From positions 76,063-140,062 of the forward strand of contig CACWHC010000014.1 of the NCBI GenBank assembly GCA_902760645.1: a DNA stretch of 64,000 bases, written 5' to 3'. Below the pieces are notes generated by a model, which was not told the origin of the DNA, did not search any database, and saw nothing but the letters and a program-made list of their open reading frames with translations. The stretch comes from an uncultured bacterium (GTDB lineage Bacteria > Cyanobacteriota > Vampirovibrionia > Gastranaerophilales > Gastranaerophilaceae). This document shows positions 1,764-45,003 of this stretch, one piece after another. The stretch's first letter is position 1. Every line of letters begins with the position of its first letter. The position numbers and the translations under genes are program-made.

Positions 1764-1815
1764 TTGCGATTATCTGAAAATATGTTATAATGATTATCTG
1801 AAAATATGTTATAAT
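1764..1815 (+). promoter_or_regulatory. Duplicated extended -10 promoter unit before prepilin gene 1
   Basis: A 24-bp unit occurs twice in exact tandem (1768-1791 and 1792-1815). Each copy ends in TGTTATAAT, an extended -10 box. The first copy has a fair -35 (TTGCGA at 1764-1769) 16 bp upstream. The prepilin ATG is at 1851, so either copy could drive it. Copy-number change of this unit would alter promoter strength. Confidence 0.65.
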
Positions 1816-1850
1816 GATAATGTAGATAGAAAACAGCGGAGGATATTGCT

Positions 1851-2940
1851 ATGACAGTATTTCAACCTAGGGGGGGGGGGCAAAACCTCTCGCAGTAAGG
1901 GTTTACAGGCATTCACATTAGCAGAAGGTGCTACGCACGTAGCTCAGTCTGCAAAGCCTCGTCGTGCCGCGTTTACTTTGGCTGAGGTTTTGATAACATT
2001 GGGTATTATCGGAGTTGTCGCGGCGATAACGTTACCTGCATTGATAGAAAATGTTACGGAGAGAAAAAACTCCGAACGTCATGCAAATATAGTGTATAAA
2101 GTTACTCAGGCAATGGATATAATGAAAGCACACGGTGAACTCAGCGGAACATACCCGACAACCGAAGCCTTTGTTGATGAACTGCAAAAGTATTTAAAAA
2201 TTTCAAAACGCTGTGACAGCAACCACATAGCCGACTGTTGGCCGACAGACAAAGTAACAGACGGTGAGGGGAATGAGTTTGAAGTAAGCAAAGCCAAAAC
2301 AGGTAAAAACTTATCTCTGAATACGAATACAAACAATGTAGGTTTAATCTTGGCAGACGGTGCATCAATAATACTGAATTACAACCCTGACGGCGGTAAA
2401 ATAGATGATACTGACCCGTTAGTAGCAGTAAAAAAATCACTACCTGTCGGCGGAGGAAGAAGTAAGGAGTTTGTTTATACATCAAATTCAACGGCATCAA
2501 TAGATTTTGTGACAGATGTAAACGGCTCGGCTCACCCTAACGCAGAAACCTCAAATAACCAATTCCACGATATAAGAAACCTGACTGCCGCAAGATTTAC
2601 AAAAGGTTGTGCCGGCACAGAACTTTCAGGTATAGGCTGTGTAGTAAATGTAGGAACAAGCTATGACCCTGTAAGTGAAGCACCATATACAAGCAACAAC
2701 AATTATTGGGCAGGAGCAAAGAAGAAGTGTGAAAGTTTAGGCATGACTTTACCTGATAAAGAAACGTTAGTAAACATAGCCAACAAAAGAGCAAGCAACC
2801 CTAACCTCCCACAGACAGGCTGGTTCTGGTCTTCCTCAGAGCTCTATACAATCACCGCATGGGGCGTTAGTTTCGATAGTGGGATCGAGTACGGCTACGG
2901 CAAGTACAATCAACTCGGGGTTCTTTGTGTAGGTAATTAG
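1851..2940 (+). CDS. Type IV prepilin-like protein with C-terminal lectin-like domain (G-tract, frame OFF)
   Basis: Likely a surface or secreted pseudopilin-like adhesin. GGAGG lies 8 bp before ATG 1851. Eight codons later comes the 11-G run, and the present frame is off by one; with 10 G the product would be 362 residues. It would carry a basic leader, then AFTLAE twice: a first copy followed by GATHVA and about 20 residues, then the full AFTLAEVLITLGIIGVVAA N-methylation/transmembrane segment. From about residue 270 the protein resembles the DUF1566/C-type-lectin-like fold (LPDKETLVNIA, then GWFWSSSE and AWGVSF). Without the ATG the only in-frame starts lie after the processing site. The last ~32 codons have unusual C-ending codons and look like a DGR variable region. 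An avd-like gene follows. Confidence 0.8.
1870..1880 (+). repeat. 11-G homopolymer tract inside the prepilin leader
   Basis: Eleven G in a row lie 19 bp after the ATG at 1851 in an AT-rich genome. The ATG frame joins the prepilin frame only if the run is 10 G. With 11 G the frame meets TAA soon after the run, and with 12 G it meets TAG about 40 bp later. This is a classic slipped-strand contingency tract, though a homopolymer sequencing error could also explain the frame. Confidence 0.85.
2818..2937 (+). other. Putative DGR variable region (VR)
   Basis: This is the 3' end of prepilin gene 1, from the GWFWSSSE motif to the last codon. Of the 32 codons at 2842-2937, 12 end in C (for example ATC, TAC, GGC, CTC), unlike the AT-ending codons of the rest of the gene. 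That is what results when AAC codons in a template are mutated at A. The frame WSSSE...AW..SF.SG matches the C-type-lectin fold used as a scaffold by known DGR targets. No template repeat was found in the window, so this is inference from codon pattern, fold and the adjacent avd. Confidence 0.6.
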
Positions 2941-2942
2941 GG

Positions 2943-3015
2943 TACTACAAACGTAGTAATGGTCGACGAATTACCTATTAATCAATTCCCCCGACGCTTC
3001 CAGAGCGTCGGGGGG
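2943..3015 (+). repeat. Two hairpins directly after the putative VR
   Basis: A 6-bp hairpin (TACTAC/GTAGTA, 4-nt loop, 2943-2958) begins 3 bp after the stop codon. It is followed by a GC-rich 11-bp perfect hairpin (2988-2998 with 3004-3014, 5-nt loop). Neither has a T-run, so a plain terminator is unlikely. DGR targets commonly have a hairpin or cruciform just after the VR that aids retrohoming. The same structures could instead stabilise the mRNA. Confidence 0.6.
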
Positions 3016-3043
3016 CGGCGAATGCCAAAAGAGAGAGAAAATT

Positions 3044-3415
3044 ATGGCACAATATGACACTTTACCAATATACAAGGCGACGTATGATTTTTTGTTAAGA
3101 GTTATGCATGCGATTTCGCATTTTCCTCGTGAATATAAGTATTCACTTGGAGAGCGTATTCAAAACGAAAGTATTGAACTTGTAATTATGATTTATAAGG
3201 TAAATGTTACGAAATCTAAAGTAGAATACCTTAAAAAAATGGAAGAGCAAATTCAATTAATATATTTGTTATTGAGAATTTCGCATGATATGAAACTTAT
3301 GCCTACAGAAAAATTTGCGGGAATTGTAGAAATGGTAGACGGTGTCGCAACACAAGCGAAAGGATGGTTAAGAGCAAACGAGAAAATGCGAGAGCCTGTT
3401 AATGCTATGGCTTAA
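3044..3415 (+). CDS. avd: Avd-like four-helix bundle protein (DGR accessory variability determinant)
   Basis: A 123-residue all-helical protein. It has the family pattern YKATYDFLLRV...FPREYKYSLGERIQNE...IMIYKVN...EQIQLIYLLLRISHDMKLM. This fits the Avd/S23-like four-helix bundle proteins that bind the DGR reverse transcriptase and template RNA; bAvd has about the same length. GAGAGAGAAA precedes the ATG. It lies 103 bp after the prepilin gene with the putative VR, the order VR-avd seen in DGRs. Here no template repeat or reverse transcriptase follows: the next gene is rpoD on the other strand. Stand-alone four-helix proteins of this family also exist, so function rests on context. Confidence 0.8.
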   Translation: MAQYDTLPIYKATYDFLLRVMHAISHFPREYKYSLGERIQNESIELVIMIYKVNVTKSKVEYLKKMEEQIQLIYLLLRISHDMKLMPTEKFAGIVEMVDGVATQAKGWLRANEKMREPVNAMA

Positions 3416-3631
3416 CAGGGAGTGTGTTTTTTCATTACGTGGAAGTCGGTATTCCCTTGAGGAAAACCAAAGTTGAGATAATATCTATGTTGTGATAAAT
3501 CGAAGTTGTTATATTTGTTATATAAATGTTTGCGTAGCAACGCCAACCTGCCATGACGACTTGCTTCCCTTCGAAATCAAAGATTTTTATCACAATGCAA
3601 AGGGTGGACAAAAACACCACCGAAAAACGCA

Positions 3632-3668: not shown

Positions 3669-4766
3669 TTATGATTCAACGTATTCTCTAAGACGTTTAC
3701 TTCTGTTCGGGTGACGAAGTTTTCTTAAAGCTTTAGCCTCAATTTGTCTGATACGTTCACGGGTAACACCGAACAACTGACCTACTTCTTCAAGTGTTCT
3801 CTGGCGGCCGTCATCCATACCGAAACGTAATCTCAATACGTCACGTTCCCTTGGAGATAAAGTACAAAGAACTTCTGCAAGGTCTTCTCTTAAAAGTTCC
3901 GATGCTACCGTCTTAATCGGAGCGTCAGCTTCTTTATCTTCAATAAAATCACCTAATCTTGAATCTTCTTCTTTACCGATTGGAGTTTCAAGTGATAAAG
4001 GTTCTTGTGCAATCTTAATTATTTCACGAAGTTTTGGAATAGAAACATTCATTTCAATTGCCAATTCATCTTCGGTCGGTTTTCTTGAAAGTTCCTGAGC
4101 TAATCTTCTCGTAACTTTCTTCAATTTATTAATAGTTTCAACCATGTGAACCGGAATACGAATAGTTCTTGCCTGATCGGCAATTGCTCTTGTAATTGCC
4201 TGTCTAATCCACCAAGTTGCATAAGTTGAGAATTTGAAACCTCTTTCGTGGTCGAATTTTTCTGCTGCACGGATTAAACCTAAATTACCTTCCTGAATTA
4301 AGTCTAAGAACAACATTCCGCGACCTACATATTTTTTGGCAATACTTACAACCAAACGTAAATTCGCCTGAACTAATTTTCTTTTTGCTATAGCACCCGG
4401 TGTACCGCCTTCAAGAATTTTTCTTGCAAGTTCTATTTCTTCATTTGCAGAAAGAAGTTTAATTCTTCCGATTTCTCTCAGGTAAAGTCTGACAGGGTCA
4501 TCTACAGCTACACCTTTTGGAACTTCAATATCATTAGTTTCTTCATCATGACTACCCATCATATAGATATCATCGATATTCATTTTTTGTTCCATTTTTT
4601 CGGTAACAATATCTTCAATGTTATCGGTGCTTATGTCCATATTCATATAATTAACGTCATTTGCGTCAATATCAAGATTTTCGTCCTCGCTTAATTCGTT
4701 TAAGTTAAGATTCTCATCATCCAAAACACTTACTACTGAGGAGTTAGGTTGTCTTTTTTTAGTCAT
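3669..4766 (-). CDS. rpoD: RNA polymerase primary sigma factor (sigma-70/SigA)
   Basis: Housekeeping sigma factor that directs RNA polymerase to -35/-10 promoters. Of 365 residues, the first ~80 are acidic and variable. Then come region 1.2 ([12 protein letters not shown]), regions 2.3-2.4 with [13 protein letters not shown] and RTIRIPVH near 185-205, region 3, and region 4.2 with [28 protein letters not shown] at the C-terminus. Its ATG lies inside the 3' end of dnaG (8-bp overlap), so the two are translationally coupled as dnaG-rpoD, part of the classic macromolecular-synthesis operon. It ends at a strong bidirectional terminator. Confidence 0.97.
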
Positions 4767-44197: not shown

Positions 44198-45003
44198 ATG
44201 ATTGAATTTTTGTTGGGGGGGGGGTAAAATCCTCTCATAGCAAGGGTTTTCGTGCATTTACATTAGCAGAAGTATTGATTACATTAGGTATAATCGGTGT
44301 TGTTGCGGCGATGACGTTGCCTGCTTTAATTCAGAATTATCAGAAAGGTGTTGCATTAAATCGTTTAAAACAAACCTATGCACAAGTTCAAACAGCTATA
44401 GATACGGTTGCAGCCAGAGATTTTGACGGACTTCCTTTACATCAGTGGAGTTGCGATAGTCAGACAAAATTTAGCGGGGTAAGATCTTGGGGGGATAGAG
44501 CAGGTGACTCTTGTCTTTATCTTGCGATACAAGAGATTGCCGTAAAAATGTATCCTCAACCTGACAGTATAGAACATGCAATGTGCTATGAAGAAGGTAG
44601 AGAGTATAGACCTTATACCGGACTTGGAGGAGGTACTTCTGAATTTAGCAATGGAAAGAAACTTTCTACAGCAGGTATATCAGCATTACTTCCTAATGGT
44701 GCTTGTGTTCGCTGGCATTGGGCTGCACATGCGGGTGATGCAAGAAGTACTATAGTATTTGATATTGATGGACCTTATTCCGGATATAATCAGTATGGAA
44801 AGGATGTTTTTAGATATTTTTACTCTACACCTAATACAGGAATAGGCAGAGGTGCAAATGGCAGACTTCTTCAAGCACTTAATCAAGGAGCACAGAGATC
44901 ATACATAAAAAATTATTGCAAAAAAAATCAAGATTGGGCAACTTCATGCGAAGCTCTAATATTAAATGACGGTTGGCAGATGAAGTCTGATTATCCGTGG
45001 TAA
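44198..45003 (+). CDS. Type IV prepilin-like protein 2 (G-tract, frame OFF)
   Basis: Same leader plan as prepilin gene 1: GGAGG 8 bp before the ATG, then a G-run. With the present 10 G the frame hits TAA immediately after the run; with 11 G it opens into a 268-residue protein. The leader KGFRAFTLAEVLITLGIIGVVAAMTLPALIQN is a typical prepilin N-terminus with one uninterrupted processing site. The C-terminal ~200 residues (SCDSQ..., SLVFDIDGPYSGYNQ-like, EALILNDGWQM) are unlike prepilin 1 and show no DGR-like codon pattern. Confidence 0.8.
44215..44224 (+). repeat. 10-G homopolymer tract in the prepilin 2 leader
   Basis: Ten G lie 14 bp after the ATG at 44198. 11 G joins the ATG to the prepilin frame; 10 G gives an immediate stop. 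Together with the 11-G run at 1870, this is the second such tract at the same position of a homologous leader. Confidence 0.85.

Follow-up and report, generated by a model that had tools for sequence, protein, structure and literature searches.

In cassettes of the Bordetella BPP-1 type, the parts of a diversity-generating retroelement (DGR) follow one another in the order target, Avd, template repeat (TR) and reverse transcriptase (RT), and in Treponema denticola several DGR targets are dispersed. For cyanobacterial DGRs, remote variable proteins dispersed in the genome have been reported, together with a paralogue that has remnant homology between TR and variable region (VR) and no RT nearby (PMC7517822). 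A DGR survey describes several VRs per TR (PMC6642488), the hairpins of phage DGRs are described as having GC-rich stems of 7-10 bp and GRNA loops (PMC3240598), and DGRs of Bacteroides are reported to diversify pilus tip proteins (Macadangdang 2024, cited in PMC12632263). In the open-licence literature, no paper was found that joins 'diversity-generating retroelement' with Melainabacteria, Gastranaerophilales or prepilin.

The locus considered here lies in the window, i.e., the whole stretch of 64,000 nucleotides that was analysed, which belongs to an assembly of 1.96 Mb in 29 contigs (99.76% complete; G000, hereafter the source genome) from a bacterium that is likely a gut relative of cyanobacteria.

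The window locus

In the window, a prepilin target gene (1861-2940) is followed by avd (3044-3415) and then by rpoD. The features are as follows.

1801..1850, + strand: leader, common to other poly-G prepilin copies of the source genome
1851..1880, + strand: candidate ATG at 1851 and G11 tract at 1870-1880 (from the sequence and a tract-length script)
1861..2940, + strand: prepilin target gene, open frame (start of the listed ORF, TTG at 1978; 320 aa)
2596..2937, + strand: C-terminal domain, residues 207-320 of the 320 aa product, predicted to fold as a C-type lectin
2820..2933, + strand: VR (alignment of 114 bases with the TR at locus L076)
2943..2958, + strand: small hairpin, 9 bases past the VR (6 bp stem, 4-base loop)
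2988..3014, + strand: GC-rich hairpin between target and avd (11 bp stem, 5-base loop)
3044..3415, + strand: avd, intact, 123 aa (PF22296, phrog_3206)
3416..3496, + strand: leader; in complete cassettes, the TR comes after it (blastn to L076 and L077)
3669..4766, - strand: rpoD, the next gene (ORF list); the gap between avd and rpoD lacks the TR and RT of a complete cassette

A blastn search with 1657-1850 gave matches at the C9, C26, C4a and C16 loci of the source genome, the best being 98% over 56 bases, and the target product matches N_methyl (PF07963) with 25.1 bits. Within 1850-2000, at the prepilin start, there is a second, tandem signal-like segment, FTLAEGATHVAQSAKPRRAAFTLAE, which is present too in the C4b and C9 copies of the source genome and in database relatives. 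In a predicted model, the C-terminal domain adopts a C-type-lectin fold around the VR, with the Lcl and Bd2740 domains as best matches. The avd product scores over the cut-off of PF22296, reaches 86 bits with phrog_3206 and stays below the cut-off of NF033474. A second prepilin frame of the window (44215-45003) has a G10 tract at its start and no visible C-type-lectin tip; part of it matches a prepilin gene that is sited between rpoD and metG in G012, a sister species.

A complete cassette and its remote targets in RUG14125

Avd relatives in named genomes were found at 54 loci, several of them in Candidatus Gastranaerophilales. The avd nearest to that of the window, with 89% identity, belongs to RUG14125 (G310), a genome of the same family and another genus, where locus L076 represents the same contig as G310:C10. 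This cassette has the order VR (86-205), avd (370-741), TR (873-990) and RT frame (989-2149), and mismatches between its VR and TR occur at 21 of 41 adenines and at none of the 78 other positions. A wider search for VR-TR pairs covered 40 loci, with some cassettes counted twice (e.g., L079 and L130). Clear pairs, in which the best pair has at most one non-A mismatch, were obtained for L076, L077, L080, L084, L130, L145 and L150; the pairs at L079 and L132 lack the adenine pattern, and the remaining loci of the 40 gave no pair.

When compared with nine genomes, the TR of L076 matched 12 places in RUG14125, namely the TR itself and 11 VRs, distributed over 11 contigs; a further two matches, in G084, were weaker. 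Relative to the TR, each of the ten remote VRs has changes at 15-23 of 40 adenines and at 1-8 of 77 other positions (each p <= 2e-5); in this tabulation, the row for L247 is the TR and not the cassette VR, which is counted in the VR-TR comparison of L076. All ten remote VRs lie in open frames, and a prepilin motif is present in the displayed start of eight. Judged by this substitution pattern, one template in RUG14125 served dispersed prepilins in trans; for the source genome, from which the TR is absent, we infer the same.

The RUG14125 cassette is like the window in its prepilin VR, its avd and its leader, and the adenines of its TR match the columns that vary among the copies of the source genome. 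It is unlike the window in that a TR and an RT are present and 11 VRs are matched by one TR; moreover, the RUG14125 loci fetched have no poly-G tract of eight or more. RUG14125 also has a second avd-RT locus (G310:C48; L081, L133), with an avd 65% identical to that of the window.

Adenine-biased variation among prepilins of the source genome

Queried with a VR, the source genome yielded five further prepilin copies (C9, C26, C16 and two on C4) and three short matches. Of the two C4 copies, C4b, whose diverged tip does not belong to the VR type, was excluded, which leaves five copies with the window. A 33-base, 82% match to the VR end on C13 (L007) lies in no VR-type gene and was rejected. With the L076 TR, from another genus of the same family, as the reference for A and non-A columns, variation among the five copies affects 34 of 40 A columns vs. 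15 of 74 others (Fisher, 1.4e-11). Taken singly, the copies show 15-22 non-A differences from this TR over 74 columns, with p values from 0.027 to 2.5e-5, the weakest being those of C9 (0.027) and the window (0.0026).

Comparison of the copies with one another gives a sharper picture. For the window and C26 VRs, the differing columns number 24 of 40 A and 0 of 74 others, for the window and C4a 24 and 2, and for C26 and C4a 23 and 2, respectively, whereas pairs involving C9 or C16 have 7-12 non-A differences from the other copies. In this pairwise list, the ungapped non-A counts of the G012 copies L051 and L058 are inflated by a small insertion, and L064 and L069 of G012 as well as C4b are left out. 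Identity of the gene bodies is 84% for window-C26, 86% for window-C4a and 91% for C26-C4a. Thus, between the window and C26, none of the 74 non-A letters of the VR has changed vs. approx. 16% of the body (p 8e-6, with a body count of 126/794 derived from the 84.1% identity rather than counted directly). Of the variable VR columns in the window, C26 and C4a copies, 28 of 31 are at first or second codon positions. Since the non-A letters of the window and C26 are more alike than their gene bodies, the pattern argues for overwriting from one template and not for selection or conversion alone. It is likely, as far as these alignments indicate, that the VRs of the window and of at least two prepilin genes on other contigs were rewritten in trans from one shared template.

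A template was also predicted from the VRs of the source genome by writing A at every varying column. It matches the L076 TR with 86% identity over 118 of 121 bases, where the window VR itself has 71%. It also matches other DGR templates (79-83% over approx. 85 bases) because DGR templates are AAC-rich; the near full-length match is to L076 only. The argument for a DGR does not depend on this match. Judged by changes that are concentrated at template adenines, the VR at 2820-2933 is of the DGR type. The proposal of the earlier note that the prepilin carries a DGR-type variable region followed by an Avd gene is therefore borne out, both by the adenine-biased differences among the five copies and by the complete homologous cassette in RUG14125.

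Tips, hairpins and poly-G tracts

A comparison of 82 proteins gave 29 pairs whose bodies share at least 95.5% identity; the tips of these pairs are 44-62% identical in 25 and identical in four, the four including one gene of the source genome vs. itself and the outside protein P0020 vs. C16. Tips vary widely among near-identical bodies in the group, and P0020, the sole outside match to a copy of the source genome, has the C16 VR unchanged and one body difference. With regard to the number of VR-domain matches per genome, 29 were found in G022 (many at contig ends), 14 in G046 and 12 in G014, which are possibly large target sets; G014 and G022 are fragmented genomes and gave no RT-profile match. 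In G012, the copy L043 (C3) has the same neighbour genes as L002 (C9) of the source genome and a body nearer to C16, as if paralogues exchange sequence.

Within the source genome, a hairpin after the VR was seen for the window copy only, with a stem of 6 bp at +9; stems of 5 bp or more are absent from the other four copies, and random stretches reach a 6 bp stem in 6% of cases. The four G012 copies tested have post-VR stems of 3-5 bp. In RUG14125, seven of the nine VRs tested, several of which share flanking sequence and are not independent, have a stem of at least 5 bp at +8 or +9, vs. 15% of random stretches; this set of nine excludes L245 and L252 of G310, which were not caught by the search expression. 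The window hairpin conforms only in part to the rule for phage DGR hairpins. The stretch 2935-3045, which holds the GC-rich hairpin, gave a z score of -5.3 as a DNA fold. In a separate hairpin comparison, the line given for the RUG14125 cassette refers to the TR instead of the VR.

A G10 or G11 tract stands right after the ATG in five copies of the source genome, and all five are out of frame as assembled. In the window, ATG 1851 joins the prepilin frame with G10 or G13, and the frame is closed with the G11 present. Some database relatives of the target are in frame through the poly-G tract. The tracts, and the relatives in frame, would be consistent with phase variation, and the pilin may be phase-variable, as the earlier note suggested; none of the five assembled copies is in the open state.

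Search for a template repeat and reverse transcriptase

In the 1.96 Mb assembly, an RVT_1 search gave no match, a profile of 10 DGR RTs gave none at E <= 10, and neither VR-based nor TR-pattern searches found a TR. A second avd over the family cut-off and a second copy of the post-avd leader (3416-3496) were also not found in this genome, the other matches of the leader having E values of 0.07 or worse. As controls, RVT_1 had matches in 18 of 38 genomes of the relatives set, the RT profile in 50 of 288 family genomes at E <= 1e-20 (with E below 1e-100 in 40 genomes, a level reached within the own genus by G001 only), and the TR pattern recovered the TR of G310. It should be noted that because the assembly consists of 29 contigs and approx. 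160 bases separate the C4a copy from a contig end, a cassette may have been missed.

Some of the RVT_1 matches in genomes of the same genus other than G001 were inspected and rejected. Those looked at in G002, G003, G006 and G007 are other kinds of locus, several of which adjoin a gene that we take to be DnaB-like, and the match in G012 (L027) has no avd or TR alongside. Within the same genus, G001:C29 (L072, L024) holds an avd-RT pair in which the RT starts right at the avd end; this pair has neither an intervening TR nor an upstream target gene. A phage origin was likewise rejected: there was no IMG/VR relative of the target or Avd and no DNA match in the phage collection, and viral RTs are at most 53% identical among the best 80 matches listed. 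A 19-base template pattern had no match in IMG/VR.

Since neither RT nor TR was recovered, the window locus is classed as the receiver half of a DGR and not as a complete DGR. The absence of both, with rpoD as the next gene, had been noticed before and extends from the gap in the window to the whole assembly. The earlier note would have read such an absence from the genome as evidence against a DGR; yet the adenine pattern marks the VR as of the DGR type. As for its two options, a diversifier acting in trans or a relic, action in trans is upheld as history by the common template and the dispersed genes, and not as present activity.

Homology of the window to complete cassettes (blastn) ends at 3478 vs. 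L076 and at 3496 vs. L077, approx. 65 bp short of their TRs. The corresponding site of G012, flanked by rpoD and metG, carries a different prepilin gene, and no avd over the cut-off was found in that genome. The dN/dS of avd is 0.05 vs. L076 and 0.08 vs. L077, with synonymous sites near saturation; these low values indicate that avd has been under selection for most of its history, which is compatible with a writer (TR and RT) that is still in use as well as with one recently lost.

Origin of the receiver half

On balance, and with a confidence only slightly better than even, we favour the reading that the locus is a receiver half, i.e., a prepilin with a VR in a predicted C-type-lectin domain together with an intact avd, which was rewritten in trans from a shared template by an RT that has probably been lost recently. 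An Avd-dependent RT would have written the VRs of the window and of at least two other prepilin genes from one template, after the gene bodies had diverged, and the writer would then have disappeared, either by deletion in place or because the locus is a truncated copy. The prepilin products may be displayed on pili and bind changing ligands.

Nearly as likely is a writer that still exists outside the assembly, with TR and RT located on DNA that escaped assembly or binning, on a plasmid or in another subpopulation, and acting in trans on the five VRs. Such a writer would fit the purifying selection on avd and the fact that the window, C26 and C4a VRs share nearly all non-A letters, so that rewriting seems later than body divergence; in addition, four of the 12 TR/VR places in RUG14125 lie approx. 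300 bases or less from a contig end (contig size checked for C10 only), and such repeats therefore break assemblies. However, TR, RT, a second avd over the cut-off and a second leader are all missing from a 99.76% complete assembly, the 99% complete genome of G012 contains five VR-type copies and likewise gave no RT-profile match at E <= 1e-20, and P0020 keeps the C16 VR unchanged with one body difference. A further, more tentative proposal, which we consider rather unlikely and which differs from the preferred reading only in the origin of the half-cassette, is that target, avd and leader, but not TR and RT, were brought into a prepilin slot between metG and rpoD by recombination via 5' ends that the prepilin genes have in common. 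The other prepilin at this place in G012, whose genome has no avd over the cut-off, would agree with such a move, as would the leader and poly-G regions common to the copies of the source genome and the G012 copy at the C9 place, which is closer to C16 (86%) than to C9 (73%); the donor cassette, however, was not found in the assembly. Very improbable is an origin of the differing tips in positive selection or gene conversion between prepilins, with no retroelement involved. Conversion between paralogues does occur, and the C4b tip has diverged without being of the VR kind, but neither process would be expected to target the template-adenine columns (34/40 vs. 15/74) or to spare all 74 other columns when approx. 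16% of the body differs between the window and C26.

Beyond the preferred reading of recent loss, one might speculate, with considerable doubt, about a split retroelement, in which the chromosome keeps only the receivers, namely poly-G-switched prepilins together with one Avd, and a TR and RT on another replicon or in part of the population edit them in trans. If so, surface variation would be gained, frozen and passed on apart from its generator.

Comparison with known systems

DGR surveys start from the RT and would miss target sets of this kind, such as five copies in a genome in which no RT was found or the ten remote targets of one RUG14125 template. The present data make it testable whether pilin repertoires in relatives of Gastranaerophilales were diversified and then frozen by loss of the writer, and the in-trans system of RUG14125, with one TR and 11 VRs, lets one ask what marks a remote target. 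The features that set the source genome apart are N-methylated prepilin targets, poly-G tracts, an Avd retained next to the target and the failure to find a writer although the assembly is near-complete.

Like the Bordetella BPP-1 type, the window has a target, Avd and a candidate hairpin after the VR, whereas TR and RT are missing and the stem, of 6 bp, is not GC-rich and the loop not GRNA, as compared with the phage hairpins that PMC3240598 describes. Cyanobacterial DGRs, as far as PMC7517822 describes them, share with the source genome dispersed targets and a paralogue without a nearby RT; however, their targets are mostly described as cytosolic with other N-terminal domains, whereas here they are prepilins, avd stands beside the target, and the RT was not found in the whole assembly. 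TvpA of Treponema denticola is likewise a chromosomal C-type-lectin variable protein of a bacterium, but its fold is given as FGE-type (PMC5006420), whereas the window domain best matches Lcl and Bd2740. The Bacteroides system resembles the window in that a pilus protein is diversified by a DGR in gut bacteria, although the account in PMC12632263 concerns type V pili built of lipoprotein pilins, in contrast to the prepilins with an N-methylation motif found here. Dispersed DGR targets were already known; what the present locus adds is targets that are poly-G prepilins and an Avd kept without an RT.
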